From Luteibacter aegosomatis (GTDB lineage Bacteria; Pseudomonadota; Gammaproteobacteria; Xanthomonadales; Rhodanobacteraceae): 64,000 bases of DNA. Every line of letters starts with the position of its first letter. Positions within the stretch are counted from its first letter, which is position 1. Shown here piece by piece: positions 2,884 to 40,799 of the stretch. The position numbers were made by a program, and so were the translations under genes. The stretch spans positions 2,096,001 to 2,160,000 of the forward strand of contig NZ_CP095740.1 of assembly GCF_023078455.1 (NCBI RefSeq), in the 5' to 3' direction. The notes beneath the pieces were generated by a model. It had not been told where the DNA came from. It ran no database searches and was given only the letters and a program-made list of their open reading frames with translations.

Positions 2884-3267
2884 ATGGAGTCGCCCATGCA
2901 TCATCTGCAAGCAAGCAGCCTGCGAACTGTCGAACTTTCGTCCCTTGGGAACGGGGACGTGTTCGTCATTGCGTCAGTCGGCGGCCATGGCCACCGGACC
3001 GGCATCGTCTTCAGTGAGCGCGGTGTGTTCATCCTCTCCGGGGGCGACCAGCTTACGGCGTATCAGAGGGCGAGCTTCGATCGCTCGACTGTCGTGGCGT
3101 GTCCTGATTGACGGGGGCTTGTTGTGTGTGCCCCGCAGGGGCTCGAGACGGCGCATCGCGAAAGCGTCAAGGCCGGCCGCATCGTAGTCGATGACGGGGG
3201 TGAGCACCTGACCTTCCGTTGGCGGGGAAGCCCGGGAGCGCCACGTTCACGCATCCAAATGAACTGA
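2884..3267 (+). pseudogene. Small gene interrupted by an in-frame TGA
   Basis: An ATG at 2884 (GTGGGGA upstream) opens a protein-like frame (MHHLQASSLRTVELSSLG, then FVIASVGGHGHRTGIVFSE and FILSGGDQLTAYQRASFDR) that stops at TGA 3109-3111. The same frame continues without a shift as LVVCAPQGLETAHRESVKAG, then RIVVDDGGEHLTFRWRG, to a stop at 3265-3267. The two halves have similar composition, so a CGA-to-TGA type nonsense change in a gene of about 127 codons is the simplest reading. I do not recognise the family. The first 75 codons could still be made as a truncated protein. Confidence 0.4.
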
Positions 3268-3486
3268 AGCGTGGCATGCGGTATCACCCTCAACTCGTTG
3301 GTACGGATTACTTCCATCGGATCGGCGCGATAAATTGAGTTGCCGAACGTGATTTTTGGCTGATGGAAGTTACTGGACGAACTCCTGCGCAAGTGGCCGC
3401 CTAGCATGTTTTGTGTGTGTATTCCGGACCGGGGAAGTCTTGAGGCTGCCCTGAGTTCCATGGCAACGGAGTAGCTGCGGAAACAC

Positions 3487-3618
3487 ATGCTCATTGAAGC
3501 CCGAGGCCTGGCGATCTGCGCTCTTGTGGCGGCCTCATACTCCCTCTTAAGATATCTGGAGGTGGGCTGGGTCGGCGATCGCGATTTGAAGGGGGCGGCG
3601 GACACCCGTCGCGACTGA
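3487..3618 (+). CDS. Possible 43-residue membrane peptide
   Basis: A short frame just ahead of the RHS-core cassette encodes one hydrophobic segment (LAICALVAASYSLLRYLEVGW) followed by a charged tail. The ribosome site is weak (GCGGA). There is a stop codon five codons upstream, so it is not the end of a longer frame. It may be a real small membrane protein or chance; composition is its only support. The remaining bases between 3268 and 3643 show nothing else recognisable. Confidence 0.22.
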   Translation: MLIEARGLAICALVAASYSLLRYLEVGWVGDRDLKGAADTRRD

Positions 3619-3643
3619 CGTTACATACCATGGGGATCGGGTC

Positions 3644-4558
3644 ATGATGACCTGTGTCGCGCGTAGGGCAGGGTTGGCTGTAGCTTCACTGCTTTGTATA
3701 AGCCGCGTACTCGCGGCCGAGACCGTTACTTACTATTACACCGATCCCCAAGGTACCGTTCTAGCAACGGCGGACTCGGCTGGCAATATCATAAGCACCA
3801 TCGATTACCGGCCCTACGGTAGTCAAGTACTCGGCACACTGGCCGAAGGGCCCGGCTACACAGGACATGTCAACGACACCGACACCGGGTTGGTGTATAT
3901 GCAGCAACGATATTACGACCCTGGCATAGGCCGGTTTTTGAGTGTCGATCCTTTGCGAGCCATGCTTCGGGCGCCAAGTCACACCAATCGGTATGGTTAT
4001 GCCAACGATAACCCTTATCGATTCATCGACCCGGACGGACGCGCAACCGTCGCGATAGGTGGGACTTTTAATGCATCCGCTTTGGCCGGCGGTACGGTCT
4101 CAGGCCAGCTTACCTTCAGTGCAACGTCTTGGAATCCAAGTACGTGGCGTTTAGGTGGCTACGGGTCGACGGGAGGACTGGCAAGCACCGATGTCGGGGT
4201 AGGTGGAGGAATTGCCATAAGCTATTCCGACGCGGATTCCGCAGAAGAGATGGCCTCGGCCAGCAGCAATGCTTCGGCGGGTGGGGGCATTAATGTATTG
4301 GGCGCTTCGTTGGGCTATGAGCAGAGCCTTTGCACGGATTGCACGGCAGTTAGAACGTTAACCCTTGGCACAAAAATCGCTGTTGCACCCGTTGAAATCC
4401 ATACCTCTGTCACCCAGTCCGCAGGCGTGACGTGGTTGGGATCGAAGCCGATCCAACCGACGGTTACCGTCGGCCCTGCTACCACGGCACCACCGCCTCC
4501 GCCTCCGCCCGTTGAGCAGTCGAAGGATTCGAATCGCATGCAGCAGGACTTGAACTGA
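3644..4558 (+). CDS. Secreted RHS-core protein with glycine-rich C-terminal domain
   Basis: 304 residues with a signal peptide (about 1-25, cut after VLA-AE). It has a single RHS repeat-associated core: YYYTDPQGTVLATADSAGN, YRPYGSQVLG, GYTGHVNDTDTGLVYMQQRY and GRFLSVDPL, with a conserved NPYRFIDPDG end at about residue 130. The C-terminal 170 residues are Gly/Ser-rich with SAEEMASAS, ASAGGGINVLGAS and a CTDC pair, ending in a Pro7 run. The whole protein is paralogous to the one at 21340-22266. The core normally closes a giant RHS shell; here it stands alone with its own export signal and no large RHS gene beside it. The C-terminal part may be a toxin or effector, but no catalytic motif is visible. 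The next gene overlaps by one base (TGATG). Confidence 0.8.
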   Translation: MMTCVARRAGLAVASLLCISRVLAAETVTYYYTDPQGTVLATADSAGNIISTIDYRPYGSQVLGTLAEGPGYTGHVNDTDTGLVYMQQRYYDPGIGRFLSVDPLRAMLRAPSHTNRYGYANDNPYRFIDPDGRATVAIGGTFNASALAGGTVSGQLTFSATSWNPSTWRLGGYGSTGGLASTDVGVGGGIAISYSDADSAEEMASASSNASAGGGINVLGASLGYEQSLCTDCTAVRTLTLGTKIAVAPVEIHTSVTQSAGVTWLGSKPIQPTVTVGPATTAPPPPPPPVEQSKDSNRMQQDLN

Positions 4559-4896
4559 TGAGCGCCAGCGCAGTGGGTTTTTTTCTCGGCGTCGCGCCCG
4601 GAATTGGCTATACGCTGTGGAATCTCGCACGTGGACAGCGCGCTTTGGAGGATGCGCGGCGCACCGCCCATGAGCATGGCGAGATGCTTGATATGGCTTC
4701 TTCGCCACGGCTGCGCTTCTATTACCTATTCAAGCCCGCGCAGTTCGTTTGTCCGCAAGACGGTGAAGGCGTCCGTCAGGCTAAGATGCGGCTATTGGCG
4801 ATGCGCAAATCTTTTATTGGTCGTCACGCACTGGGCGGTTTGCTGGTGATTATTGGAGGATTCGTGGGAGTCGCCATAGGGCTTGGCGTGGGATAA
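4558..4896 (+). CDS. Small membrane protein, putative immunity partner of the RHS-core protein
   Basis: 112 residues. An N-terminal hydrophobic stretch (VGFFLGVAPGIGYTLW) and a C-terminal transmembrane segment (ALGGLLVIIGGFVGVAIGLGVG) flank a charged middle with HGEMLDM and GEGVRQAK. The start overlaps the stop of the RHS-core gene, so the two are translationally coupled. It is a diverged paralogue of 22295-22654, which has the same position relative to the second RHS-core gene; both share the GxxPGxxY start, HGE(M/F)LD and the DGxGVR motif. Cognate immunity is inferred from coupling and co-duplication only. It could also be an assembly or export helper. Confidence 0.65.
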   Translation: MSASAVGFFLGVAPGIGYTLWNLARGQRALEDARRTAHEHGEMLDMASSPRLRFYYLFKPAQFVCPQDGEGVRQAKMRLLAMRKSFIGRHALGGLLVIIGGFVGVAIGLGVG

Positions 4897-4901
4897 ATTT
4901 C

Positions 4902-5261
4902 GTGAAAGCGGAAATTTACAGCAAGGCCGTGTTGCTCGAACTGAAAGGCCTGCTGTCTTCGATTCTGGAAGACAATCCCATCGATCTATCGGTCCTTCGC
5001 CGTATCGACGAACTCCGACGCGGCGTCGTGCATGGCGACGACACCGCGTTTTTCTCGATACGAGCCGCAGTTTCCGATCTGGATGACATTCCAGACGAAG
5101 CCCGAGCTTCGTTATTCTCAGAGAAGTTTCTCAATGAGCAGCGGCAAAAAAGCGCGGAGTACTTGCGCGACGCTGCGCTCGACATCCGAGCAGCAGCCAA
5201 AGCACTGCTATCTTCCAGCTGGATGAATCACGCTGAAGCCACCCCGCCTACAGACAACTGA
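4902..5261 (+). CDS. Hypothetical helical protein, third gene of the RHS-core cassette
   Basis: 119 residues from a GTG five bases after the previous stop. The sequence is acidic and helical (LLELKGLLSSILEDNPIDLSVLRRI, then a basic ELRRGVVHGDD, then long helices rich in Ala and Glu). There is no signal peptide or membrane segment, so it should be cytosolic. I do not recognise the family. Close spacing puts it in the same operon as the two preceding genes; an accessory immunity role is possible but unproven. The second cassette at 21-23 kb has no counterpart. Confidence 0.6.
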   Translation: MKAEIYSKAVLLELKGLLSSILEDNPIDLSVLRRIDELRRGVVHGDDTAFFSIRAAVSDLDDIPDEARASLFSEKFLNEQRQKSAEYLRDAALDIRAAAKALLSSSWMNHAEATPPTDN

Positions 5262-5743
5262 ATGTTGATTTGGTAGGGTCTTCACGTCGTCTGCGCTGCT
5301 GGTCACGTGGTGCCGCAGACGACCATCGCTCGAAGCGGTGAGCGCGGGGCAGAGGTGCTAGGAACACCGACTGCCCCGCTGACCACAATCAACACGTAGA
5401 GTTGACCATGGCTAAGCCGAATACTAAGGCATCCACGCGCCCGCCGCTTCCCCGCGGCAGCACCCTCGACGGTTACCGGGCTGTCTGGCCACCTTCCAGA
5501 CGCGGTTGACGAACCGCGGCGCCCGCCGTCTTCACTGCGACTTTTCTCAGCCGTACGACCCGGCGCGTAAGCGCTCGGCCTGAATCCGGCTGACGCCGCA
5601 CCCCACTTCCCAACCCAAACGCCCGGCGCCCGGACACGGGCAGGCCGTCGAGCCTCATCGTCTTCGAGCGATGGCTCCACCCGCGGCACGCCCGTTCAAG
5701 GCGTGTCGCACCTAAGGCCATGGGCAAACACAAGGAGTACCTA
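5262..5743. other. Gene-poor stretch
   Basis: About 480 bases without a convincing gene. A frame at 5408-5509 (MAKPNTKASTRPPLPRG, 33 codons) exists but has no clear ribosome site and is Pro/Arg-rich as chance frames are in this GC range. The last bases (CACAAGGAGTACCTA) are the ribosome site of the next gene. Confidence 0.4.
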
Positions 5744-10463: not shown

Positions 10464-10850
10464 TTACTTTGATTGTTCGCCCGCCAGCCAAAAGACTAAG
10501 TCCTGAATGGTGTCTACCGATGATGGACGATTTGAGGTCTTTTTGCGAATCAAGTCTTCGAGCGCGTCCTGTGCTCCGCCTAACTGCCAACTGTCCACCT
10601 TAAAGATCTCATCGAGCTTATCCGAAGGTCTAAGTTGTCCGGGACGGATACGGAGTTCCTTCGCAATCGTGCGAAAAACCTCCTCGAACAGAGAGAACGG
10701 TATGGTCATATTCGACATTTCCCATAGGCGTCGAAGGTCGGCATCTTCCCGTGCGCCAAATAGCTTATTTCGCGAATGTCGCGTGAAATAGACGATCAAG
10801 ACGACTAGCGCAATACCGGAAGCGGCAACTACGGACCAAGTCGATATCAT
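10464..10850 (-). CDS. Membrane-anchored putative immunity protein for the RHS gene
   Basis: 128 residues with one N-terminal membrane segment (WSVVAASGIALVVLIVYF) and a cytosolic, acidic domain (FEEVFRTIAKELRIRPGQLR, PSDKLDEIFKVDSWQLGG). It begins two bases after the stop of the giant RHS gene, the normal place for a cognate immunity gene. GC content is visibly lower than in the RHS shell, as is usual for exchanged toxin-immunity tips. Its role is inferred from position. Confidence 0.65.
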   Translation of the reverse strand: MISTWSVVAASGIALVVLIVYFTRHSRNKLFGAREDADLRRLWEMSNMTIPFSLFEEVFRTIAKELRIRPGQLRPSDKLDEIFKVDSWQLGGAQDALEDLIRKKTSNRPSSVDTIQDLVFWLAGEQSK

Positions 10851-10852
10851 GG

Positions 10853-13800
10853 CTAATTCTCAGGAATCGCGTAGATGAAGCCTTCCAGAATGATTGTCGC
10901 ATTGTAGAAGCCTATTCCTACGGTAGCAACGCCGATTAATGCGGCACCGGCCCTTACGGCTGGAGCATTTGCACCTGGTACGCCAAAACCACGCGGCACG
11001 CTGGTCAGCGGATTTTTTGATCCGAGAAGTGCGGGCCGTCCCCCTGTCGCAGGAGCAAGGGATTTAGGCCAGAGCCCTCCAGCCATAGCGGCCGCGTAGG
11101 GCCCCACATCAATCACGTGATCGGCAGTCCAGTCAATGTACCGGTCGCGGTAACGATCCCAGTATCCGTCGTCGCATGAGCGACCTGCCAAGGGCGAGCC
11201 AGGATTCCAGAAGTCGGGGTTGTACATGCTGGCGGAGTCATCTAGCCCAAGCGTGTCTCTGTTATTCAGCGGACGCCCACTTGTGTACAGGTAAGTCGAA
11301 ATGCCAGCAGAGAGGCCCATGGGGTCGCTTTGAATATATCGGCCCGTCGCCGGTTCATAATCGCGGTTAACGTTGTAATTCAATCCGCTCTCCGCATCGA
11401 AGTATTGTCCGGGGAGGCGCAGGTTGAGGACGTATCCCGTCGCAGACGTTGGTGGCATTTCGCCGAACGGATTGCTGGCGTAGGGCCACTGCCAGAGTGT
11501 CGAGCCCGCCGCACTCGTTACCGCGCGGGGGGTATCGAGACCATCGGCATGGATGAAAGCCACCGAAGTGGTGGTGCCGGCGTGGTCGACGATCCCGACC
11601 GGAAGGTCGTCCAGCCATACATAGTCACGTGAGGCTGTTCCCATCGACTCTGCCAGCAGCTGGTTCGTTTCGTTGTAGTCAAAACGCGTAACGGCACTCC
11701 CCACCGTTTTCTGCACGCGTTGGCCCAGCGCGTTGAGCACATAGGTACCCACGGTAGCGCCGTCCTTCTGTACCGAGGTCAGGCGGTTCCGCTGGTTGTA
11801 GCCGAACGTATAAGCCCCGGAGGCCAGTACGCTGGACGTGGTGTTCCCGCGTGCGTCCACTTGGCGCGTCGTCGCGCCGACGCCGATGAGATGATGCGTG
11901 CCGGTGGCATAGCTATAAGCGCCAGTGAGGATGCCGGGCCCTGTCTTGCTCAGTCGGTCGCCGGTCTTGTTATAGGTATAGGCCTCGATGGCGGTCCCGG
12001 CTGGGTTCTTTACGCTGCTCAAGCGGTAGAGCGGGTCGTAGCTGTAGGTCTCGCTCGCCGTCGGCACCCCTGCGGCATTGCCGATGGCCGTGATGTTGCC
12101 GAGCACGTCCCGTTTCACATGGAGGGAAAGTGCCGTGCCCACGATGTCGGTCAGCGCACCGGAGACGTCGTGCGTAATGGTCACCGTCTGGCCGTCGCCG
12201 AGCTTGTACGAAGCCACGGGGCCGAACGAACGGTAGACGACGTTGCTGACGACGGTGGTTGCCGTGCCACCCTGCGGCGTGGCGGTGACGGCCGTGATGT
12301 TGCCGATGCTGTCGCGGGTGTAGGCGATGAGCGTGCCGTTCGGCGTGGTCACCGAGTTGAGGCGATTACCGCGCGTCCAGGTGTAGGCGGTCGTCGTGGT
12401 CGTGGTGCCGACGGTCTGCTGCTTCCTGGCCACGTTGCCGCGTGCGTCGTAACAGAACACGATGCCGCCGTTGCCTTCGACGATGCGGGTCAGGCGGCCC
12501 TTGCCGAAGCTGCCGCTGCATCCAGTGACCGAGTCCGCTTCGTCGTACTTGTACTGCACGTTGAGCGTGGTGTCGGCGTAACTCGTGGAGAGGATGCGGT
12601 TGTTCACGTCATACGTCGACGTGCTGCTGTTGTTGGTGGCATCCGTTGACGTGGTCAGGTTTCCGGCGGCATCGAACGCGCGGGACGTCGTGCCGGTGTC
12701 CGGGCTGTGCAGGCCGGTGACGTTGCCGAGGGAATCGATGTCGTAGGTGGTGTTCAATCCGTCCGGATCGCTGAAACCCGTGACTCGGTCGAGTGCATCG
12801 AAGGAGGTGACCGACTGGGCGTCCTTCGTGGCCGTGTCCGTGCCCTGATAGTTGTGGAGCGTGCTGACCAGCCGGTTGAGCCCATCGAACACCTGCTTGC
12901 GCTGGATGCCGAGGCCGTCCTGGCTGTGGACGAGGTTGCCGTCGGCGTCGTAGCTGTCGGCATACGTCGCCGAGAACACCGTGCGATTCAGCCCGTCGGT
13001 GATGGCCGTGAGCTGGCCCAGGGTGTTGAAGCTTTGCGAGGTGCTGCGAACCACGGTACCGGCGGCCGTGATGACCTGTTCCTTCGTGCGGTTGCCGGCG
13101 GCATCGAGGGTGTAGTGGTAACGCCGTCCCTGGCCATCCGTCACATCGGTCAGGCGGTGGGCGGCGTCGTAGGTGTAGGTCGTGGTGACCTTATCGGGAT
13201 CGGTCACCTGGTGAACGGTGCCGTCCGGGTTGTAGGTGACGGTGGTCACCGCGTCGCTGCTCGACGGCGCCCCGGACGCCTGTGCGCGGACCGTGGTCGT
13301 CGCCAGCCAGCCGCGGGGAGTGTACGTGTAGTCGGTGAGCACGCCGTTGGGAGCCTTGATACGCGTCGGCCGTCCGGCCTTGTCGTAGCTCACGAAGGTG
13401 GTGACCAGACCCGCACCGTCCGTGACGGTCTTCAGGTCTCCCGGACGGTGGCACGCGCCGCCCAACGTGGCGCAGCCCGACTCGTCGAGTTGCTGGTACC
13501 AGGCGTAAGTCAGGGTGTCGCCCACATCCGTGCGCGGTCCGTCGACCTTGAGCAGCAGACCGAGGAGCGGGCAGGTGGTCGACACGCTCTCGCAATAGGC
13601 GAGGTTGGTGCGACGAACCCCAGCGGGCACGGTGCCGGTGGCGGCACAGCTGTAGGAGGGGGCCTTGACCGGGTCGATGAGGCATTGGGCCGTGGTCTGG
13701 CCCCGGCTGTTGTACGCCCAACCTTCCTTCTGCACGATGCTGCCCGAAGCGTCCTTGACCGTGCGAAGCAGCGGCACGCGCAACGACGTGTTCCAGGTGG

Positions 13801-15451
13801 TATCGATGGTGCGTTGGTCGGCGGAACCCTGGGCGTCGATTTCCTGCGTCGGCAGGCCGTTGGCGTCGTAGGTCATCGCCCGGACGTTGCCGTTGAAGTC
13901 GGTGTAGCTCGCCGGGCGTGAGTTGGCGTCGTAGGTGCGGGAAGCATACGGCTGGCCGCATTCGCCACAGGGCTTGTCGATGGTGGCTACCCGGAACAGG
14001 CCCTGGACCGTGGCATAGCCTTGGTGGGAGACCCCGCCGAGGGGATAAGTCACGTCGGACGATCCATCGGCGTTGTAGGCGACAGCCACCCGCCCGGTAC
14101 CGCCGGCGAATTGGGTCGAGGTGGCCCGGCCGGTGCCGTCGAAGGCCGTGTCCTCGTAACGCACGCCGTTCTCGTCGACGAGGCCGGTCATGGCCGACGG
14201 CAGGTTGTTGCCGCCCGTGAGGGTCGATTCGTTGTAGACGTACTGGCGCGTTTTGCCGTCGGGATACTGAACCGACGTCAGGTTGCCGGTGGTGTCGTAT
14301 CCGTAGACGAACGTGCCGCCGTCGGGAAGGGTGAGTTGGTGGATATGCGCATTGGCATCGTAGGTAAACGACAGCGCGCGGCCTCCGGGAGCAGTGACGG
14401 TGAGCAGCAGGCCAGGCTTCGGAGCGATGGACGGATCGGTCAGCGTGTCACTGTAGGTGAGCGTGGCCGTCTGGCCGGTCGGGTCCTGGATGGTCAGCAG
14501 ATGACCGTCGGGGCTGTAGGTTTCGGTATGGCGGAGGGCGGCGACCCATAGCGAGTAGCCGGCCGTCGCCCCTTGGGCATCGACCGACTCGGTGAGGATG
14601 TCGGGATTATTCGGGGTGGTGGTCCAGGCGGTCGTTGCGTTTCTATGGAAAACTTCCGCCAAGCCGCTCGGCCGTGAAGCAGTCGCTACGACGACTCCCG
14701 CGGTACTGGTGGTGACCGTCAGACCACGGTTGAACGAATGACTCCAATGGGCGCCCATCGAACTGTCGGGCGCGGACGGATGGCTGTTGTAGAACCGTCG
14801 GAACCGGAGCCAGTCGCTGGCCGTGTAGTCGTCTTCCTGTATGTACTTATTGCCAGTGGCCGTGTTGATGGGGTCGCCAGCCGAAGGCGTTCCCGTATCC
14901 GGCACACCCTTGCCCGACTCGCAACTCGGGCTATCGCCGCCACCGGAGCTGCTGTTGCCACCGCCGCCGTCGCTGCCTTCGCCGCCGTCGCAACCCGCTC
15001 CCTCGCCGTTGTTCTGGCCCGCGTCGAAGCTGTACTCGGTGGCGAAGATGCCGTTGCCGCCGCCGCAAGGCGACTGGAGCAGCATGCCGGCGACCTGGCC
15101 GCCTGTCTCGTAAGGGTCGTAATACTCGGGGTCATAGCCACAATCGTAGCCAGGCCAGACCCGTTGCCAATCGGCCCACCAGTGGTCCATGGCTTCGCCT
15201 ATGGAAGCGAAAGGGCCGTTGTCGGCATAGCCATGGTGGTAATAAGGAGCATCCCAGTAGATTCCCGATCCGTCGGAGGCAACGGCAGCAACGTTAAATC
15301 GTTTGACGGCGTACGGCGTTGTCGACGGCACCGCGACTGCTGGGGGACGCGTACTGCTTGAGGACGCCGGGCCGTCGCCAGGAAGGGCGTGGGCAGCGAA
15401 TGAGAGCAGCAAAGCGAAGAGCATCGCAACGCCGTATCGGACGAGGTTCAT
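10853..15451 (-). CDS. Giant RHS repeat protein with short variable C-terminal domain
   Basis: 1532 residues starting at MNLVRYG, giving a signal peptide (AMLFALLLSFAAHALPG). An upstream in-frame start at 15496 would hide it. A Ser/Gly-rich linker and DUF6531-like entry (GDPINTATGNKYIQEDDYTA, about residue 190) are followed by many YD repeats (GxxxxYxYDxxGNL) forming the RHS shell. The core (NPFGE, GYVLNLRLPGQYFDAESGLN, GRYIQSDPMGL) is at about 1320-1380. The last 140 residues are variable, of lower GC, with a hydrophobic end (AGAALIGVATVGIGFYNATI). RHS proteins deliver a C-terminal toxin to neighbouring cells. No nuclease motif is visible; the tip may act on membranes. Secretion appears Sec-dependent, as no PAAR or VgrG part is present. 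Confidence 0.88.
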   Translation of the reverse strand: MNLVRYGVAMLFALLLSFAAHALPGDGPASSSSTRPPAVAVPSTTPYAVKRFNVAAVASDGSGIYWDAPYYHHGYADNGPFASIGEAMDHWWADWQRVWPGYDCGYDPEYYDPYETGGQVAGMLLQSPCGGGNGIFATEYSFDAGQNNGEGAGCDGGEGSDGGGGNSSSGGGDSPSCESGKGVPDTGTPSAGDPINTATGNKYIQEDDYTASDWLRFRRFYNSHPSAPDSSMGAHWSHSFNRGLTVTTSTAGVVVATASRPSGLAEVFHRNATTAWTTTPNNPDILTESVDAQGATAGYSLWVAALRHTETYSPDGHLLTIQDPTGQTATLTYSDTLTDPSIAPKPGLLLTVTAPGGRALSFTYDANAHIHQLTLPDGGTFVYGYDTTGNLTSVQYPDGKTRQYVYNESTLTGGNNLPSAMTGLVDENGVRYEDTAFDGTGRATSTQFAGGTGRVAVAYNADGSSDVTYPLGGVSHQGYATVQGLFRVATIDKPCGECGQPYASRTYDANSRPASYTDFNGNVRAMTYDANGLPTQEIDAQGSADQRTIDTTWNTSLRVPLLRTVKDASGSIVQKEGWAYNSRGQTTAQCLIDPVKAPSYSCAATGTVPAGVRRTNLAYCESVSTTCPLLGLLLKVDGPRTDVGDTLTYAWYQQLDESGCATLGGACHRPGDLKTVTDGAGLVTTFVSYDKAGRPTRIKAPNGVLTDYTYTPRGWLATTTVRAQASGAPSSSDAVTTVTYNPDGTVHQVTDPDKVTTTYTYDAAHRLTDVTDGQGRRYHYTLDAAGNRTKEQVITAAGTVVRSTSQSFNTLGQLTAITDGLNRTVFSATYADSYDADGNLVHSQDGLGIQRKQVFDGLNRLVSTLHNYQGTDTATKDAQSVTSFDALDRVTGFSDPDGLNTTYDIDSLGNVTGLHSPDTGTTSRAFDAAGNLTTSTDATNNSSTSTYDVNNRILSTSYADTTLNVQYKYDEADSVTGCSGSFGKGRLTRIVEGNGGIVFCYDARGNVARKQQTVGTTTTTTAYTWTRGNRLNSVTTPNGTLIAYTRDSIGNITAVTATPQGGTATTVVSNVVYRSFGPVASYKLGDGQTVTITHDVSGALTDIVGTALSLHVKRDVLGNITAIGNAAGVPTASETYSYDPLYRLSSVKNPAGTAIEAYTYNKTGDRLSKTGPGILTGAYSYATGTHHLIGVGATTRQVDARGNTTSSVLASGAYTFGYNQRNRLTSVQKDGATVGTYVLNALGQRVQKTVGSAVTRFDYNETNQLLAESMGTASRDYVWLDDLPVGIVDHAGTTTSVAFIHADGLDTPRAVTSAAGSTLWQWPYASNPFGEMPPTSATGYVLNLRLPGQYFDAESGLNYNVNRDYEPATGRYIQSDPMGLSAGISTYLYTSGRPLNNRDTLGLDDSASMYNPDFWNPGSPLAGRSCDDGYWDRYRDRYIDWTADHVIDVGPYAAAMAGGLWPKSLAPATGGRPALLGSKNPLTSVPRGFGVPGANAPAVRAGAALIGVATVGIGFYNATIILEGFIYAIPEN

Positions 15452-15980
15452 CGGACAGCTTCCCTGGAGTGTGCCGTAGGCTGAAGGGCCGGGCATCGCG
15501 GGAAGGGTGCGCCCTTAGGCTTGGGTCGGTCTGTAGGGGAAATCTTACAGTCGTCAGATTTGTGACGTAGGTCAGCCTGGCGATTGACGTCCCCCGGGGG
15601 CGTGACATCTTGAGCGCGTTGTTCCCGTCAGCGGTCGCAATCCATTAAGCGGGCAAGATGGCTTCGCCCGTTGCTCCATGTCCCCGCGACTGAAGACCTA
15701 CTGGGACGCCTTCTGCCGAACCGCCAACTCCTCGACGACGTCACGGACGCCTTATGCGCACAAACTTGCGTTACGCGCCGTTTGTAGTGGCCGATCTTGC
15801 AAAAGTAACCATTGAACACCAAGGTTGGGCAAAAATCGTAAATTCCTGACATCTCGCATTTACGAAGACTTAATTCCCCGTTTCAGATGCTAACGCCACC
15901 GTATTCACTTACGGCAAGGGGGCGGTCGTGGGGTAGGGACTCGCGACCCGACAATTCAAGCGGGAACCAGGGGACTACGG
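15452..15980. promoter_or_regulatory. Divergent promoter region between two giant RHS genes
   Basis: About 530 bases separate the two outward-facing RHS genes. A perfect 10-bp palindrome CCCCCGGGGG lies at 15591-15600, and the right third (15780-15890) is AT-rich as a promoter would be. A 45-codon frame at 15678-15815 (MSPRLKTYWDAFCRTANSST) reads like the start of an ASCH-type protein and could be a relic. I cannot place the -10/-35 boxes with confidence. Confidence 0.4.
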
Positions 15981-18900
15981 ATGTCGAACGTCGCAGTGCG
16001 GGGGAGGGTCGCGCCGGTGGCGCTTGCCCTGATGTTGGCGTGGGTGAGCGGGGAGGTGCTGGCGCAATCGGCCGCGGTGAGCCCCGAAAGCGAGTTCCAG
16101 AAGCGCATCAAGGTGTCCGAGGACATTCAGCCGGTCGGGGAGCATCCCTTCGGCGAAAGCATCAGTCTCTACAACGGCGCACTGTCGTTCGAAGAGAACG
16201 ACATCAAGCTGACCGGCCAGGGGCCGGATATCGAGTTGACGCGCTCATTCCATCCGGCGGACGCGCCGCCCGACTCCGTCTACTACAGCTTCATCGATAA
16301 CGCGTTCGTCGACTGGTCGCTGGAAACGCCGCGCATCGAAACGCTTTCGGCCGCGAGCGGCACCGCCAATCTCGATCCTCCGTCCACGGCGCGCTGGTCC
16401 TTCATTTCCGATACGCAACGCTGCAGCTTTCCCGACGGCGGTCCCGACGAATTCATCACCTTCAAGGGTACGGTCCTGACCTATGCCGCGGACGACTGGT
16501 GGCACGGCTACCAGCTGATCGTGCCAGGGCATGGAAGCCAGGATCTGCTGACGCGGGATACCAACAACACGCAGTTTCCGGCGATGACGGGAACGGACGG
16601 TAACCCCATCAAGTTTCCGCTGGTCACGAAAGAGCGCTGGGCGGTGGGATGCACTCCGGCGACCTCGAACGGTCAGCCGGGGGAGGGCTTTGTCGCGGTG
16701 TCCCCGGACGGCACGAAGTACTACCTGGACGTGCTGCTCTGGAAGAAAACCGACTACATGGCTACCGGCGGCGGTGGGGCGTTGCATCGCCGACTGGCCA
16801 CCATGAACGTCTCCCGCGTGGTGGACCGCTTCGGCAACTCGGTGACCTACAGCTACGACGGCAACGGCAATCTCACCGAGATCGACGGCAGCGACGGCCG
16901 AAAGGTCACGCTTGCCTATGAGACCTGGCAAAACCCGGCCAAGGATCCCTTCGGCAACTTCTATGACCCGGTGGCCTATCGGGTCCACAGCATCACCGTC
17001 CAGCCGGCCAGCGCAGCGCCCCGCACCTGGACCTACGGTTACGGCACCGATCCGGTATTGCCTCGCCTCAACCGTGTCCAGTTGCCCGACGGCAGCGCAT
17101 GGAGCTTCAACCTCGGCGGCTTTGCGCCGCTGCCGACCGACGGCCTGCTCATCCTCAATCAGGGATGTTCTTATGTGCTTCGGCCACAGGACGCCGTCAC
17201 GTCGTCGGGATCGATCACCCAGCCGTCGGGGGTGACGGGCACCTTCACCTTGCGCAGCACGATCCGCGGGCGCTCCTATGTGCCGGCCGTCTGCCTCAAC
17301 GTCAACGGCGCGCCTCAGAACCGTTTTCCTGCCGCTTACAAACGGAACTCGCTCATCCAGCGCACATTGAGCGGGGCGGGCATCGGTACGCAAACCTGGA
17401 CCTACAGCTACTCCGCGCCCAACGACAGCTGGTCGACCTGCACGACCGGTTGCCCATCGACGGTGACGACGGAGATGGTGGATCCGTCGAACCGGACCAC
17501 GCGCTATACCTTCAGCAATCGCTTCGACGCGTCGGAGAGCCTGTTGCTGCAAAGCGACTTCTTTTCGGCGGACGACACCTCGGCCGTCGTGCGCACCGAA
17601 GCGTCGCAATACGCGCTCCCGAACGCCGACGGCAGCTCCCCATGGCCCTGGCCGGCCACGCTCGGCCGCTCGCAGATCCTCGCGGTCAACGCCGACCAGA
17701 TGGGGCGCCTGACCCCTGTCACGACGCGCACCATCGTGCAGGATGGAGACACCTATACCTGGACGGCCCAGTCGTTCGACGCCTTCGCCAACCCGGTCCA
17801 GGTGCGCCGGGGCAACACCATCGCGGGCCAGTCGCCGTTCGTCGAATCCACGAGTTACCTGAATGATCCTGCGTTGTGGGTGCTCGGATTGCCGACGCAG
17901 GTGACCAATCTCTCTGGCACCACGGCGGAGACCGAATCCCTCAACACGTACAATGCGCTCGACCTGCTGCAGAGTCGCGCCCGGTTCGGGCAGACCCTGA
18001 TGAGCTACACCTATGACGGCGCCGGGCAACTCGCCACCTATACCGACGGCAACGGTCACACGACGTCGCTGTCCGGCTATCAACGCGGCTTGCCGACCCT
18101 CGTCACGTATCCCGATCAAACGACGGAACACATCGGGGTGAGCGACTTCGGCGAAGTAGCGTCCCTGACGGACCAGGCGGGCAATACCACCAGCTACGCT
18201 TACGACAGCATGGGTCGGATCGCGCAGATTTCCTATCCCGCGGGCGATTCCGTGGCATGGGCGCCGAAGGTCTTCTCCTACGCCTTCGTATCCACGGCGG
18301 AGCGGGGCGTGGACGCCAATCATTGGCGGCGCATCGTCACCCAGGGTGTTCACGCGGACGCCACCTATTTCGACGCGCTCCTGCGCCCGATGGTGACGGG
18401 GCATTGGCGCACGAGCGATTCGGGGATGCAGACCACGACGGTCACCGCGCACGATTGGCGTGGCAACGTCACCTTCCAGTCGTATCCCGTCGATGGCTCG
18501 CCGGATTTCAACGGTGTCACCAGCGGCATCACCACCAATTACGATGCTTTGTCACGCGTGGTGCAAAGCATCCAGCCGTCGGAGACGGGCGCGGCGCTGA
18601 CGACCACCACGAGTTATCTGTCGGGAGCGCGCAAGCAGGTGACCGATCCCAACGGCAACGTCGTGACCACGGCGTATCAGGTTTTCGATGAGCCCGCGCT
18701 CGATCATCCGGTGATCGTGCAGGCGCCGGAGGGTGTCACCCAGTCGATCACGCGCGACGTGTACGGCAATCCGACACAGATCGCCCAGGGAGGTATCGTC
18801 AAAACCTTCGTCTACGACGCCTTCCATCGCCTGTGCCGCTCGGTGGAGCCGGAGACCGGCAGCACCGTCACGGCCTACGACGCCGCGAACAACGTGCTGT

Positions 18901-21335
18901 GGACCGCCGAGGGCCAGTCCATTGCCGGTACCGGAGCCTGCGGAAACGACCAGGTGGCGGCGAGTGCCCAGGTCATGCGGGCCTACGATGCGCTGAACCG
19001 GGTGACGCAGGTGACCTATCCGGGCACGACGCCGGCGAGCGTGTTCACGTATACCCCGACCGGCAAAGTGCTCACCGAAGCGACCGACGGTATCGTCTGG
19101 ACCTTCGCCTACGACAAGCGCGACCTGCCGACGGCGCAAAGCCTGTCGGTGGATGGTCATGTCTGGCCGGTGGGTTTCGGCTACGACGCCAACGGCGCGC
19201 TGGCCGCGATGACGTATCCGGACGGCAAGGCCGTGCCGTTTTCCCCTGACGCCTACGGGCGCCCCACGCAGGCGGGAGCCTATGCCACCGCGGCCACGTA
19301 TTTTCCGGATGACCAGCTCCAGCACGCGACCCTGGGCAACGGCACGGAATACCTGGGCCAACGCAACGCGCGGAACCTCCTTTCGGATTTCACCTTCTCG
19401 CGTGGCGGTACCTTTCAGGTCAGCGAAGGCCTGAGCTACGACAACGACGCCAATATCACCGGAGTATCCGACCTGGTCGACGGCACGACCCGCAATCGTT
19501 CGTTTCAGTACGACGGCCTGAGCCGTCTGAAATCCGCCACCGCGTCGCTCTATGGCACGGAGACCTACGCCTACGATCCGCTCAACAACATCGTCAGCAT
19601 GGCCTCGGGCGGTTCGACCAACACCTACACCTACGACGGCAGCAACCTGCTTCGCAGCATTTCGGGAGGAAGCGTTTCGCGTACCTTCGCCTATGACGCC
19701 CGAGGCAATGTCACCCAGAACGGCGGTGCGCAGTACACGTTCGACGAAGCCAACCGCCTGACGTCGTTCGTGGGTGTCGATACCTACCGGTACGATGCCG
19801 AAGGGCGGCGCGTCAAAGCCACTGCGGCGAACGGTGCCATCACCTATTCGCTGTATAGCCATGATGGCCAGTTGCTCTGGCAGTTCGATCCTGCTGCCAA
19901 TAGCGGAACTGACTACATCTATCTCGGCAAGAAGCTCGTCGCCCGTACGAACCATGTGTTGGTGCCGGCCGCGCCCGTCCTGACCGTGCCGGCGACCGGC
20001 ACGGCCACGACCGCTTACACCGTGTCCTGGACGGCGACGGCAGCGACCACCAGCTATGAACTTCAGGAAGAGCCCGATGGGGGCGCATGGACCACGATCT
20101 ACACCGGGACCGCGCTGAGCAAGTCCATCACCCAGACGGGCGCTGGAGCCTTCCACTATCAGGTTCATGCGTGCAATGCAGGCGGATGCGGAAACTGGAG
20201 TGCCATCGGGACGATCGCGGTTGCTCCGGCGCCCACCGCTCCCGTGGCGCCGGCCTCGGTCAGTGCGAGCGTCGCGGGAGATCTTTCGTCCATCTCGGTC
20301 ACCTGGTCGAGTTCGCCGACCGCAACCTCCTACAATCTCCAGCAACGGTTCAACTCGGGCGCCTTTGCCGACGTCGGGCCTGCGCCCGGGGGCAACACCA
20401 CCGTGACGATTGCCAACCCGGCGGACGGCACCTATGCGTACCAGGCCCGCGCCTGCAACGCGGTCGGCTGTAGCGTGTGGGTGGCGAGCGCCACCGTCCG
20501 CGTCGCGCACATTCCGCCGGCACCAGGCTCCATCAGTGTGCCGGGAACGAGTACGGGAGTACTGGGCATCAGTTGGCCGGCAGTGGCCTATGCGACGAGC
20601 TACTCGCTCGAACAGAGCACGGATAATGCCAATTACGGTGCGGTCTACAACGGTGCGGCGACGAGCGCGAGCATCGGGGTCGGGGCGACCGGCGTTTACT
20701 ACTATCGGGTCAGGGGATGCAACGCCAACGGTTGTGGCGCCTACAGTCCCGTGGGCGTGTCCTCGGTCACCATTCCGCCCTCCCAGGCGCCCGCCATCTC
20801 TGGTCCTGGAAGCAGCAGCAACGGGTGCTACACCATCAACTGGGGCGGCGTGCCGGGCGCGATTTCCTATGTGATGCAGGAAAACACCAACGGGGCAGGA
20901 TGGGTCACGATTGGAAACGACGGCTCGGGCGCCCTTGGCATCTGCGGGAAGGGTAACGGCACCTATTACTACCAGGTGCAGGGCTGCAACGCGGGCGGGT
21001 GCGGGCCCTTCAGTGGGGTGGTCTCCGTGGTTGTGGCCTTGGTTCCTGCTCCGCCTGCAAATCTGACGGCCAGCACCACCCGGGCTCCCGGAAAAATGGA
21101 AGCCGTCGCAAAATGGAACGCTTCAGCGGGTGCCACAAGTTATCAGCTCACGGCCAAGATAACGCCGCCGCCAGGCAGCGGAGACGGCTTGGTCTACACC
21201 GGGCCCAACACTACCGCCACGATCTTTCCGCAGGGGGTCAACGCCACCGTTGTGTTTACGGTCAAGGCATGCAATGCCAACGGATGCTCCGCCAACAGCA
21301 ACGCCGCATCGACGCAGGTGGCCAATGGAAACTGA
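15981..21335 (+). CDS. Giant RHS repeat protein ending in five FN3-like domains, no RHS core
   Basis: 1784 residues with a signal peptide (ALALMLAWVSGEVLAQS). A beta-rich N-terminal part (SLYNGALSFEENDIKLTG) and many YD repeats run to about residue 1313 (YIYLGKKLVARTNH). Then the RHS shell stops without the usual core and is followed by five tandem fibronectin-III-like domains of about 90 residues, each ending in a CNAxGC pair (ACNAGGCG, ACNAVGCS, GCNANGCG, GCNAGGCG, ACNANGCS). The RHS core is instead encoded in the small secreted protein starting 5 bases downstream. The two probably work together as a split RHS. The FN3 tail suggests surface or glycan attachment. Confidence 0.85.
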   Translation: MSNVAVRGRVAPVALALMLAWVSGEVLAQSAAVSPESEFQKRIKVSEDIQPVGEHPFGESISLYNGALSFEENDIKLTGQGPDIELTRSFHPADAPPDSVYYSFIDNAFVDWSLETPRIETLSAASGTANLDPPSTARWSFISDTQRCSFPDGGPDEFITFKGTVLTYAADDWWHGYQLIVPGHGSQDLLTRDTNNTQFPAMTGTDGNPIKFPLVTKERWAVGCTPATSNGQPGEGFVAVSPDGTKYYLDVLLWKKTDYMATGGGGALHRRLATMNVSRVVDRFGNSVTYSYDGNGNLTEIDGSDGRKVTLAYETWQNPAKDPFGNFYDPVAYRVHSITVQPASAAPRTWTYGYGTDPVLPRLNRVQLPDGSAWSFNLGGFAPLPTDGLLILNQGCSYVLRPQDAVTSSGSITQPSGVTGTFTLRSTIRGRSYVPAVCLNVNGAPQNRFPAAYKRNSLIQRTLSGAGIGTQTWTYSYSAPNDSWSTCTTGCPSTVTTEMVDPSNRTTRYTFSNRFDASESLLLQSDFFSADDTSAVVRTEASQYALPNADGSSPWPWPATLGRSQILAVNADQMGRLTPVTTRTIVQDGDTYTWTAQSFDAFANPVQVRRGNTIAGQSPFVESTSYLNDPALWVLGLPTQVTNLSGTTAETESLNTYNALDLLQSRARFGQTLMSYTYDGAGQLATYTDGNGHTTSLSGYQRGLPTLVTYPDQTTEHIGVSDFGEVASLTDQAGNTTSYAYDSMGRIAQISYPAGDSVAWAPKVFSYAFVSTAERGVDANHWRRIVTQGVHADATYFDALLRPMVTGHWRTSDSGMQTTTVTAHDWRGNVTFQSYPVDGSPDFNGVTSGITTNYDALSRVVQSIQPSETGAALTTTTSYLSGARKQVTDPNGNVVTTAYQVFDEPALDHPVIVQAPEGVTQSITRDVYGNPTQIAQGGIVKTFVYDAFHRLCRSVEPETGSTVTAYDAANNVLWTAEGQSIAGTGACGNDQVAASAQVMRAYDALNRVTQVTYPGTTPASVFTYTPTGKVLTEATDGIVWTFAYDKRDLPTAQSLSVDGHVWPVGFGYDANGALAAMTYPDGKAVPFSPDAYGRPTQAGAYATAATYFPDDQLQHATLGNGTEYLGQRNARNLLSDFTFSRGGTFQVSEGLSYDNDANITGVSDLVDGTTRNRSFQYDGLSRLKSATASLYGTETYAYDPLNNIVSMASGGSTNTYTYDGSNLLRSISGGSVSRTFAYDARGNVTQNGGAQYTFDEANRLTSFVGVDTYRYDAEGRRVKATAANGAITYSLYSHDGQLLWQFDPAANSGTDYIYLGKKLVARTNHVLVPAAPVLTVPATGTATTAYTVSWTATAATTSYELQEEPDGGAWTTIYTGTALSKSITQTGAGAFHYQVHACNAGGCGNWSAIGTIAVAPAPTAPVAPASVSASVAGDLSSISVTWSSSPTATSYNLQQRFNSGAFADVGPAPGGNTTVTIANPADGTYAYQARACNAVGCSVWVASATVRVAHIPPAPGSISVPGTSTGVLGISWPAVAYATSYSLEQSTDNANYGAVYNGAATSASIGVGATGVYYYRVRGCNANGCGAYSPVGVSSVTIPPSQAPAISGPGSSSNGCYTINWGGVPGAISYVMQENTNGAGWVTIGNDGSGALGICGKGNGTYYYQVQGCNAGGCGPFSGVVSVVVALVPAPPANLTASTTRAPGKMEAVAKWNASAGATSYQLTAKITPPPGSGDGLVYTGPNTTATIFPQGVNATVVFTVKACNANGCSANSNAASTQVANGN

Positions 21336-21339
21336 AGCG

Positions 21340-22266
21340 ATGAAGACGATGACTCGCATTGGCCGTTGGCTCGTGGTCGCCCTGTTGCTGGTGATGAGTC
21401 CGGTATGTTTCTCGCAGGCAGCGGAGACCGTCACCTACTATTACACCGACCAGCAGGGGACCCCGCTGGCGACGGCGGACGCCTCCGGGAATATCCTGAC
21501 GACGTCGGACTACCGGCCCTATGGCAGCGAGGTGCTGGGCACCCCAGTGGAAGGGCCGGGATACACCGGACATGTGAATGACCTCGATTCGGGTCTGCTA
21601 TACATGCAGGCCCGGTACTATGACCCGGTGGTGGGTAGGTTTTTGAGTACAGATCCGCAAGGCGTCACCGTAGGACATGTTCATAACTTCGGACTTTACG
21701 AATATGCCAATTCGAATCCGGTCGGAAACGTCGATCCGGATGGCAAGGAAACCTTCGCGATTGGATTCAACGTTAGTATATCTGCGCTGGGTGGTGTCAC
21801 CGGCACCAGGCAGATCACTGTGAGCATGGATGGCCTGAAAATTTCGACTCTGAGCGTCGGTTATTACAACGCTGCTGGAGGAACCGCATCAACCGCAATT
21901 GGCCCGAGTCTGGTCATTGTTGGTAGTTATTCAAAGGCAAACTCAGCGGAAGAATTTGCGGATACCGGTGGCGCCGCGAGCGCGGGCGGAGGCGTGAATG
22001 TTTTCGGTGCTTCAGGGGGGTATGAGCAAAGCATCTGCGATCGATGCAACTCGGTTAGCAGTCTCTACGTAGGCGGAAAAATACCGCAGTTGCCTTTTGA
22101 AGTGCATGCATCAATAACTCAGTCAGTGGGCTACACCATATTCGGCAACCCACCTGCAGTGAGGCCAACGGTGAAGGTCGGTGATCCCAAGCCTTCGCCG
22201 CCTCCGCCGCCTCCGCCGCCAACAACGCCTTTGGTACCATCGACGTGGACCATCCCCAGTACGTAA
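21340..22266 (+). CDS. Secreted RHS-core protein, partner of the split RHS
   Basis: 308 residues from the ATG at 21340 (an ATG at 21325 overlapping the previous stop is possible). The signal peptide is RWLVVALLLVMSPVCFSQA. The RHS core is complete (YYYTDQQGTPLATADASGN, YRPYGSEVLG, GYTGHVNDLDSGLLYMQARY, GRFLSTDPQ, NVDPDG). The C-terminal half matches the 3644-4558 protein: SAEEFADTGG, ASAGGGVNVFGASGGYEQS, CDRC pair, a Pro8 run. It is coupled to the core-less RHS gene. The C-terminal half is a candidate effector. GC falls after the core, consistent with an exchangeable tip. Confidence 0.8.
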   Translation: MKTMTRIGRWLVVALLLVMSPVCFSQAAETVTYYYTDQQGTPLATADASGNILTTSDYRPYGSEVLGTPVEGPGYTGHVNDLDSGLLYMQARYYDPVVGRFLSTDPQGVTVGHVHNFGLYEYANSNPVGNVDPDGKETFAIGFNVSISALGGVTGTRQITVSMDGLKISTLSVGYYNAAGGTASTAIGPSLVIVGSYSKANSAEEFADTGGAASAGGGVNVFGASGGYEQSICDRCNSVSSLYVGGKIPQLPFEVHASITQSVGYTIFGNPPAVRPTVKVGDPKPSPPPPPPPPTTPLVPSTWTIPST

Positions 22267-22294: not shown

Positions 22295-22654
22295 ATGGAC
22301 TTAGGTTTATTTGGTTTCTTAGTCGGAGGCGCTCCGGGATTCAGTTACGTCTTGACAACGATGTTCCGTGTTCGGCAGGCGCAAGCCGAGGCGCAAAAAG
22401 TTGCCAGACAACACGGGGAGTTTCTAGACTTTGACTCTTCGGAAAATCAGTCTTACGACTTCTTGCTGAATCCGCGGAACTTTATCAAGCCGTCCGACGG
22501 GCCCGGCGTCCGCAGGGGGAAAAATCTGCTTCTCGCAATCAGGGACAAGATGTGGAAACGCCTGTGGATAGGAGTGATCTTAATGATCGTCGGAATGCCG
22601 GTCGGCATTTTCGCAGCCGCTGCCTACACTCAGTACTTCTTGACGCCTCACTAG
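22295..22654 (+). CDS. Small membrane protein, putative immunity partner
   Basis: 119 residues; a paralogue of 4558-4896 in the same position after an RHS-core gene. It has an N-terminal hydrophobic segment (LFGFLVGGAPGFSYVL), HGEFLDFDS, the DGPGVRRGK motif and a C-terminal membrane helix (MWKRLWIGVILMIVGMPVGI). The last 40 codons (22535-22654) are duplicated at 24114-24233 without the rest of the gene. An immunity role is inferred from position and co-duplication. Confidence 0.68.
   Translation: MDLGLFGFLVGGAPGFSYVLTTMFRVRQAQAEAQKVARQHGEFLDFDSSENQSYDFLLNPRNFIKPSDGPGVRRGKNLLLAIRDKMWKRLWIGVILMIVGMPVGIFAAAAYTQYFLTPH
22535..22654 (+). repeat. Direct repeat, copy A (3' end of immunity-like gene)
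   Basis: 120 bases encoding the C-terminal membrane helix and stop of the gene at 22295. Copy B at 24114-24233 aligns without gaps at about 90% identity by eye. The repeat is in the same orientation 1.6 kb apart. Confidence 0.85.
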
Positions 22655-23706: not shown

Positions 23707-24150
23707 ATGAAAGTGGTGATTGAAGGAACGCCTCTCCCTTCACTGACCGATATCATGGATGCGATGGGTATCCAGGTCAGCGACTTTGACTGGTATGTGT
23801 CCGAGTTGGAAGGTTGCCCGTGGCCGATAGCGTCCAACAATCGGTGGCTCACAGGGGAGGATATGGCCGCCCTCTATTCTTCGCACGAGCCGACCTTCTC
23901 ATGGGGCATCTTTGACGCGGTGGCTCGGGGCGAGCGACCCGCAATCGCGGCATCGCCTTTTGCCGATGGGAATGAAGCGATATGGGCCCCAACGTCATAT
24001 GCTCCGCAGGTGCCCGGGGCGAAGTTCGAGGTAGTGTTTTGGGACAGTTCTGCTGTTGTTGTAACCGGGCTGTCGGACGCGCAGGGCAAGGCGCTTCATA
24101 TGGCGTTCCCGCGGCGATCAGGGGCAAAATGTGGAAACGCCTGTGGATAG
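23707..24150 (+). CDS. Hypothetical protein with chimeric 3' end
   Basis: 147 residues from the ATG at 23707 (AAAGGATGG upstream; an ATG at 23698 is less well placed). The body (PSLTDIMDAMGIQVSDFDWY, NNRWLTGEDMAALYSS, FSWGIFDAVARGERPAI) looks like a cytosolic immunity-type protein, but I cannot name its family. From 24114 the gene enters the duplicated 3' end of the membrane gene at 22295 in a different frame, so its last dozen residues (RRSGAKCGNACG) are an artefact of the junction. The native C-terminus was probably lost. Confidence 0.5.
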   Translation: MKVVIEGTPLPSLTDIMDAMGIQVSDFDWYVSELEGCPWPIASNNRWLTGEDMAALYSSHEPTFSWGIFDAVARGERPAIAASPFADGNEAIWAPTSYAPQVPGAKFEVVFWDSSAVVVTGLSDAQGKALHMAFPRRSGAKCGNACG

Positions 24151-24233
24151 GAGTGGTCTTAATGATCGTCGGAATGCCGGTCGGAATTCTCGCAGCCGCT
24201 GCCTACACTGATTACTTCTTGGCGTCTCAGTGA
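24114..24233 (+). repeat. Direct repeat, copy B (orphan 3' end of immunity-like gene)
   Basis: Encodes MWKRLWIGVVLMIVGMPVGI, then LAAAAYTDYFLASQ and a stop. It matches the end of the 22295 gene but has no start of its own. It marks a recombination junction. Confidence 0.85.
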
Positions 24234-40678: not shown

Positions 40679-40799
40679 CTTTTTCGGCAAGTCGCCTTAT
40701 GCGGGCCTTACAGAAGGTCCCAGGTTGGCATGAATCATGCGAAGGCCGTGCGCTACGAGCGTTGGGGCTCGGTCATGTCATCCATCGGGGAAATTCGTT

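Follow-up and report, generated by a model that had tools for sequence, protein, structure and literature searches.

Organization of the locus

The window analysed here is the whole of a 64,000-nucleotide stretch of the genome of Luteibacter aegosomatis (contig NZ_CP095740.1, positions 2,096,001 to 2,160,000 of the forward strand); it carries two copies of a two-gene unit, in which a small protein with an RHS core is followed by a short partner protein, and a long RHS shell gene beside the second copy. Copy 1 begins with an open reading frame (ORF) of 304 amino acids (aa) at 3644..4558 (+), which, judging from the ORF, the TIGR03696 match, a leader heuristic and an alignment of 20 sequences, encodes a signal-like leader, an RHS core (plug and autoprotease) and a toxin-type, Gly-rich C-terminal domain with a CxxC motif. 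The leader (approximately residues 1-25; 3644..3718, +) was called by a heuristic of hydrophobicity and a following small-x-small motif with the core next, not by SignalP. The leader is followed by VTYYYTDPQGT.., and the core (residues 28-133; 3725..4042, +) is supported by the profile match and a conserved Asp pair; the TIGR03696 match covers residues 55-132 (E 3.7e-20, 72.2 bits, cut-off 32.5). The putative autoprotease Asp residues are encoded at 3947-3949 (SVDP) and 4028-4030 (PxxxxDPDG), assigned by analogy with D1324 and D1346 of RhsA (PMC8765631, in part). The remainder (4043..4558, +) is a candidate toxin domain; the C-terminal half of the protein consists to 50% of Gly, Ala, Ser and Thr and to 10% of charged residues, and both Cys of the CxxC motif (4331-4342) are invariant in 20 of 20 aligned sequences. 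The domain composition given in the initial annotation was thus borne out.

The motif TGATG joins copy 1 to a partner ORF of 112 aa (4558..4896, +) by a one-base overlap, with A4558 common to both. The partner, a candidate immunity protein, has a clear hydrophobic segment at residues 91-109 only, the N-terminal one being merely moderate. The unit had been drawn to position 5261; the ORF at 4902-5261, considered as a third component, matched itself alone among the searched loci, probably lies outside the unit and was dropped. Full-length relatives of copy 1 are present in other genomes, which places the unit beyond chance.

Copy 2 comprises a leader-bearing RHS core with a toxin-type C-terminus (21340..22266, +, with a start at 21325 or 21340; TIGR03696 E 5.6e-19, and alignment) and a partner of 119 aa (22295..22654, +), likewise a candidate immunity protein. 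The two core-toxin proteins are 56% identical and the two partners 39%, in agreement with the recurrence of the unit at 21.3-22.7 kb that had been noted before. The one-base overlap is confined to copy 1, the two genes of copy 2 lying 28 nt apart.

Directly upstream of copy 2 lies a gene for an RHS shell of 1784 aa without a core (15981..21335, +), with a signal-like leader (by eye), YD repeats to about residue 1321 and an FN3-like tail at about 19944-21335. It yielded matches to RHS_repeat PF05593 in seven stretches (E 5.3e-40), to ChitinaseA_N (1.5e-8) and to YD_repeat, whereas the core profile did not match it at all. Depending on which start is used, the core ORF of copy 2 overlaps or abuts the shell gene. 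The statement that no giant RHS gene is adjacent therefore holds for copy 1 and fails for copy 2; what had been overlooked is that the cassette looks like the second half of a split RHS gene, the first half of which is the coreless shell beside copy 2.

Census of RHS cores

In total 61 related genomes were searched, from which 60 places and later another 12 were extracted, and 78 named loci were added (best 80 of the genome-collection matches); loci are numbered with L and genomes with G. A hidden Markov model (HMM) of the core, built from 111 segments, was run on all loci and on the window, and partial cores were excluded from the counts. Among the 162 distinct full cores of this collection, 134 have their own leader directly before the core, 21 are fused in frame to a YD shell and seven are arranged otherwise (two of the seven, L030 and L167, resemble near-threshold leaders). 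The leader-bearing core proteins are called plugs below. Their stop-to-stop frames have a median length of 345 aa, with 118 of 134 between 280 and 420 aa. A shell-like ORF ends at most 700 nt upstream of 67 plugs, the median distance from the shell stop to the core being 132 nt, whereas 67 are without one (10 of these with little flank). FN3 matches occur in 65 of these 67 neighbouring ORFs, the other two match YD repeats only, and a core is absent from all 67. Among the named genera with leader-bearing cores are Luteibacter, Rhodanobacter, Frateuria, Dyella, Luteimonas, Stenotrophomonas, Lysobacter, Pinirhizobacter, Mizugakiibacter, Fulvimonas and Pseudoxanthomonas. The leader test used here is anchored on the core; it replaced an earlier heuristic applied to predicted starts (passed by 91 of 120, versus 427 of 2400 shuffles and 34 of 474 internal segments), which was unsatisfactory because starts are often mispredicted.

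A FastTree phylogeny of 171 cores (105 columns) left 81 of 168 inner branches open. For this tree, L030 and L167 were added to the leader-bearing cores and two L085 cores to the fused ones, whereas three unclassed cores were left out. The fused state required 10 changes versus 22.8 in shuffles, and the adjacent and orphan labels 39 changes each versus about 53. The fused state is clustered on the tree; a single origin does not follow from this.

Junction of shell and core

Ten fused relatives were aligned with the shell of the window and the core of copy 2. In five of them the match to the shell stops at residue 1321 (..DYIYLGKKLVA); in the four relatives with a clean break the core resumes 5, 14, 9 and 9 residues past the shell end, and in six the local alignments overlapped, leaving no gap. 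In solved RHS structures the core profile matched close to where the shell part ends C-terminally, in 8h8a at 1049-1151 of 1152, in 8qja at 1765-1878 of 1879, in 7q97 at 1180-1289 of 1426 and in Tse15 (8uxt) at 1282-1420 of 1596, and the shell matches precede it (8h8a 843-1015; 8qja 1560-1683; Tse15 979-1232). By these alignments, shell and core tile one RHS cocoon, and the break between them falls at a constant point.

The tails of the shells occupy the site at which a core would follow. Of 75 coreless FN3-tailed ORFs, 63 have a core in the next 700 nt, eight have none there and four lie at a locus edge; for the 34 of at least 1500 aa the corresponding numbers are 27, six and one. YD matches were obtained in 87 ORFs (de-duplication incomplete), of which 60 combine them with FN3, 16 with a core, 10 with neither and one with both; in this last ORF the FN3 match is well upstream of the YD repeats that belong to the core and not between shell and core. 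None of the 21 fused cores has an FN3 tail directly before it.

These observations bear on the proposal that ordinary RHS genes were merely broken near their 3' ends by frameshifts or stop codons, the leader being a chance hydrophobic stretch. Reading frames do overlap at the junction, and clearly broken copies exist (L014, L015, L107 and L203). Nevertheless, 134 cores, from 10 or more named genera, share the position of the leader, FN3 or other tails take the place of the core, the junction is clean, the neighbouring shells are coreless, and shells of about 1560-1950 aa are open without a core beside them. Decay of this kind is very improbable as a general explanation and was rejected; with 134 of 162 cores preceded by their own leader, the cassette of the initial annotation is not a frameshift-split piece of a full-length RHS gene. 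In locus L107, an open coreless shell of 1819 aa is followed by a truncated core gene (decay in the reverse sense).

Conservation of the plug

In RhsA, the C-terminal region is described as the plug and aspartyl autoprotease, which closes the cocoon by spiralling into its interior, and a change of D1324 or D1346 abolishes cleavage (PMC8765631, in part). The corresponding Asp pair is present in 134 of 134 and 133 of 134 leader-bearing cores, equally in lone and in paired plugs, and its columns are invariant in an alignment of 118 database relatives, a set that excludes P0015 (copy 2 itself) and P0017 (a fragment). The residue after DPxG is Arg or Lys in 102 of 134, as against Trp, Leu or Phe in the published motif. 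The ratio of nonsynonymous to synonymous substitution rates (dN/dS) of the core, pooled over 87 non-independent pairs, is 0.113, which indicates purifying selection at the protein level. Judged from these patterns, the plugs look functional.

Toxin domains and partner gene

Regarding the C-terminal ends of the 118 relatives, Pfam matches were obtained to Tox-REase-7 (11), HNH (7), LHH (2), and Ntox21, Ntox24 and Ntox50 (one each), which identifies the plug C-termini as the varied ends of polymorphic toxins. A SUKH-1 gene lies downstream of the L012 plug. The toxin domain of copies 1 and 2 matched no named family in Pfam, NCBIfam, PHROG, Padloc or PDB profile searches, and the profile searches run on the partner named no family either.

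The partner has 24 database relatives, and 18 copies occur in 12 genomes among 233 family genomes: five behind an intact core plus toxin domain, one behind a fragment, and 12 with none within 1.5 kb upstream. Conversely, each of the five intact toxin domains of the copy 1/2 type among the loci has the partner behind it. Two of the 12 partner genomes gave little with copy 1, namely no match (G019) and one weak match (G008; 7.9e-5, frame not listed). That the toxin was not seen without the partner, while the partner often occurs alone, is the pattern of an immunity gene; in copies 1 and 2 the membrane-type partner may protect against a toxin that acts on the envelope.

One lone leader-bearing core gene (L013 9777-10805) has by eye a HELGGH metalloprotease-like motif at its C-terminus and gave no toxin Pfam match.

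Copies elsewhere in the genome

The genome of the window (one contig, 4.76 Mb) holds 10 matches to copy 1. Besides the two copies of the window, these comprise three further core genes that are short and intact (located at 267 kb, 2.33 Mb and 4.03 Mb), broken copies at 1.93 Mb and 4.69 Mb (the latter giving two matches), and two matches within long RHS frames. The locus at 2.33 Mb mirrors copy 2, with a shell of 1831 aa, a core ORF overlapping it by 11 nt and then a SUKH-1-type gene. The core genes at 267 kb and 4.03 Mb have no shell alongside, and a small gene lies behind each. Two VasE-family genes of a type VI secretion system (T6SS) are distant, at 3.51 and 3.53 Mb; the presence of a leader favours export by Sec rather than by the T6SS.

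Lone shells and lone plugs

Across 23 genomes of the genus, counted by hand with shell matches of E 1e-30 or better, 15 have a leader-bearing core together with a shell match, one has a plug only, none has a shell only and seven have neither (Fisher p 3.3e-5, a value that ignores kinship). In these counts the shell of G007 is cut at a contig end, that of G021 has one internal stop, and G013, scored as having neither, has an FN3 frame of 170 aa. Intact shells without an adjacent core were found in L106, in L108 (a consecutive pair that follows a fused RHS gene), in L109 (with a core upstream) and in L111; in L154 the core is 1.2 kb from the shell. The dN/dS of lone shells versus their best relative is 0.24-0.36. 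In Luteibacter sp. Sphag1AF (G020) the sole intact FN3-tailed shell found has no core nearby, and at least four leader-bearing cores lie elsewhere. Because intact shells and plugs both occur alone, several plugs may be accepted in trans by a single shell, in the way that TcB takes up orphan TcC.

A different account would have the secreted core-toxin act alone as a small, bacteriocin-like exotoxin, with the core as a leftover or an autoprocessing domain and the shell as a separate adhesin. The half of the plugs without a shell-like ORF within 700 nt, the adhesion-type tails of the shells and the one genome (G009) in which a plug is accompanied only by a 95-aa FN3 frame would fit such a protein. 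It is nonetheless quite unlikely, given that plugs and shells co-occur in the genus, that the other half of the plugs neighbour a shell, that shell stop and plug start coincide at one point of the RHS fold, and that the corresponding region spirals inside the shell in solved RHS proteins (PMC8765631, in part).

Relationship to known systems

An ordinary RHS toxin is a single chain that forms a beta-shell, an end plug with an aspartyl autoprotease, and a toxin held inside. At the loci studied here a YD shell, a core with PxxxxDPxG and the Asp dyad, and a variable toxin with an immunity gene are all present in sequence, as in RHS polymorphic toxins; shell, core and toxin are not in one polypeptide, being on separate ORFs in 67 loci including copy 2. 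Sec-exported single-chain RHS toxins (PMC3482391 Table 1, in part) and the T6SS effector RhsA (PMC8765631, in part) share the YD shell, the PxxxxDPxG core, the variable toxin and the immunity gene. They differ from the present loci, in which there are two separately translated, leader-bearing chains, and the shell is followed by extracellular-type modules in place of the core.

The closest parallel in architecture is the TcB/TcC cocoon, a two-protein RHS cocoon in which the second protein carries the core, the autoprotease and the toxin. In that system, the orphan YenC3 from a distant locus assembles in trans with the shared YenB shell (PMC11067744, in part). In the present loci the genes are split, and lone C-like genes exist. 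The dimensions differ, as 97.2% of TcC proteins have 851-1050 aa (PMC7861908, in part) and YenC proteins have a common N-terminal domain of about 680 residues (PMC11067744, in part), whereas the whole plug has about 300 aa here with a core of about 105 residues and no such length of shell wall. In a further difference to Tc toxins, immunity-type genes follow the plugs, and bacterial targets are presumed. SpvB and beta-propeller Pfam families gave no match in the shell of the window at E 0.1; no search was made for TcA.

Orphan rhs-CT/rhsI modules and dissociated tips also resemble the cassettes, since they combine a core remnant with a variable toxin and an immunity gene and are scattered or arrayed (PMC3150448, PMC3967940, PMC2935791, in part). 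The small genes could accordingly be taken for displaced RHS tips that serve as donors for recombination into resident RHS genes, as in enterobacteria. Besides the variable toxin ends and the small downstream genes, this would account for the arrays that adjoin fused RHS genes in a small number of genomes (L078, L085 and L094), for the relics in the window and for decayed shell remnants beside plugs. In the available parts of the reports, however, orphan modules usually lack start and export signals and are activated by recombination (PMC3967940, PMC3150448), and the core fragments of orphan tips vary in length and are almost the same in sequence as the resident core (PMC2935791). The plugs of the present collection instead have a conserved leader at one fixed place (134 of 162 cores), a fixed left end of the core and a within-genome core identity averaging 57% (53 cores). 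Orphan tips lie downstream of a full-length rhs gene, whereas half of the plugs lack a shell-like ORF in the preceding 700 nt (the flank being short for 10 of them) and half follow coreless ORFs; none of the 67 neighbouring shell-like ORFs offers a core to recombine with, and the low dN/dS of the core points to constraint on the protein. Displaced tips are an unlikely explanation, and in its pure form, which would call for leaderless cores of variable left end behind full-length rhs genes, the reading was dropped.

Among the papers listed, separately exported plugs paired with coreless, adhesin-tailed shells were not found described at the level of titles and the starts of abstracts, a limited claim given that few subscription papers and no bioRxiv preprints were covered. 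PMC13340143 (in part) does not deal with such an arrangement either.

Proposed mechanism

Taken together, the cassette is probably the toxin half of a split RHS polymorphic toxin, and soil bacteria of the Luteibacter group appear to build a giant RHS capsule from two proteins that leave the cell separately, namely a hollow shell and a toxin-bearing plug. The product of the shell gene would be exported; its YD-repeat shell runs as far as the final strand ahead of the core position (..DYIYLGKKLVA), and extracellular-type modules (FN3 in the window) come next. The second gene would give a separately exported plug and autoprotease fused to a variable toxin, with the immunity gene next to it. Both proteins would be exported by Sec and meet in the periplasm or outside, where the plug would seal the open shell and cut itself so that the toxin is held inside. 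Lone plugs would use shells encoded elsewhere.

A broader version of this proposal is offered tentatively, with a chance that we put a little below even. It holds that a few coreless shells in a genome are shared carriers, into which many separately exported plug-autoprotease-toxins with immunity genes, often encoded at a distance, load in trans outside the cytoplasm; that the freed C-terminus of the shell carries FN3, PKD, cadherin, CBM or TSP3 modules for target choice or grip; and that the toxin is chosen by expression and export and not by recombination. Outward modules would be placed on the shell because the plug goes inside, and a chain continuing into the plug could not easily carry them. 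The initial annotation saw a compact module that may exchange cores between RHS shells; the stand-alone unit and its tie to shells are retained here, whereas recombination would be unneeded if the plug is exported separately and assembles in trans.

Several observations weigh against the split system. The leader test is simple and loose, being passed by 26 of 1120 windows from long ORFs, three of the 21 fused cores and 834 of 2680 shuffled leaders, and the leader has a dN/dS of 0.535, a weaker constraint than that on the core. The collection was seeded with plug sequences, so that 134:21 is not a natural frequency, and the demand for a full HMM match gives an advantage to cores that have the Asp motifs. 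The region 3000-5700 of the window yielded no sigma-70-like promoter. Two plugs in the genome of the window are broken, the sole shell trace in G009 is a remnant, the lone shell of L111 has partial core pieces upstream, and two of the four plugs in G020 adjoin decayed shell remnants; with decayed shells beside them, some lone plugs may be relics. Finally, cores are hardly more similar within genomes (0.571) than between them (0.563), with 323 of 2000 permutations as high (53 cores, 16 genomes). The idea that plugs are fitted to the resident shell was set aside, as within-genome core similarity gives no signal for it.

RHS toxins are thought to change their weapon by recombination of the 3'-end DNA. 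If the proposal is true, one cell could field many toxins at once with one shell and without DNA rearrangement, the logic of TcB/TcC would apply also to exported RHS toxins, presumably antibacterial ones, of the Xanthomonadales and of other groups, and many short genes annotated as 'RHS repeat-associated core' would be explained. A split system makes it testable how an untethered plug loads an RHS shell, and a minimal separable plug of about 105 residues would be a useful handle on RHS autoproteolysis.

Occurrence outside the order and on mobile elements

In a survey of the class, 22 of 274 genomes yielded matches at 1e-15. Outside the order, eight regions from seven genomes with frames of 277-434 aa were considered (G074 and G251, with shorter frames, were left out), and leader-bearing cores were seen by eye in six of the seven genomes. 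Other tails follow the shells there, namely PKD, cadherin, FN3 and CBM in L201, PKD in L202 and TSP3 in L204; the shell of L203 is broken into pieces and ends without a tail. One 6-kb contig (L200) contains two tandem copies of a shell tail followed by a leader-bearing core gene.

On plasmid pAMED10_300 of Alteromonas mediterranea, three genes that each overlap by 4 nt are annotated as 'RHS repeat protein', 'RHS repeat-associated core domain-containing protein' and 'hypothetical protein'. The core protein consists of a leader and then at once the core, and the shell closes with the same last strand of the fold as the window shell, before a different tail. On a plasmid of A. macleodii (L206 8668-9789) there is instead an orphan core to which a shell remnant is joined in frame; the end of this protein, rich in Gly, Ser and Ala, resembles by eye the toxin domain of copy 1. 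A search for mobile carriage yielded 57 plasmid records at E 1e-10, none of which covers 80% of the query, and three weak phage records.

Other features of the window

An ordinary full-length RHS gene of 1547 aa with the core in the same chain, read from its translation and outside the split system, is located at 10853..15496 (-) and provides a contrast to the shell gene. With its small downstream gene this exported RHS gene spans 10464-15496 (-), so that three RHS systems lie inside about 20 kb. At 24114..24230 (+) a partner gene survives as a relic of 39 residues, with 82% identity to the partner of copy 2; it is flanked by two related proteins (22813-23244 and 24809-25261), which are 37% identical and have three to four hydrophobic segments. 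Thoeris-type defence genes are present just upstream of copy 1 (84-2657), comprising ThsA (E 4e-184) and two ThsB/TIR genes (3e-62 and 2e-67). At 40737-46433 an autotransporter-like protein of 1898 aa with many NTYTGGT-type repeats is encoded, as read from its translation.

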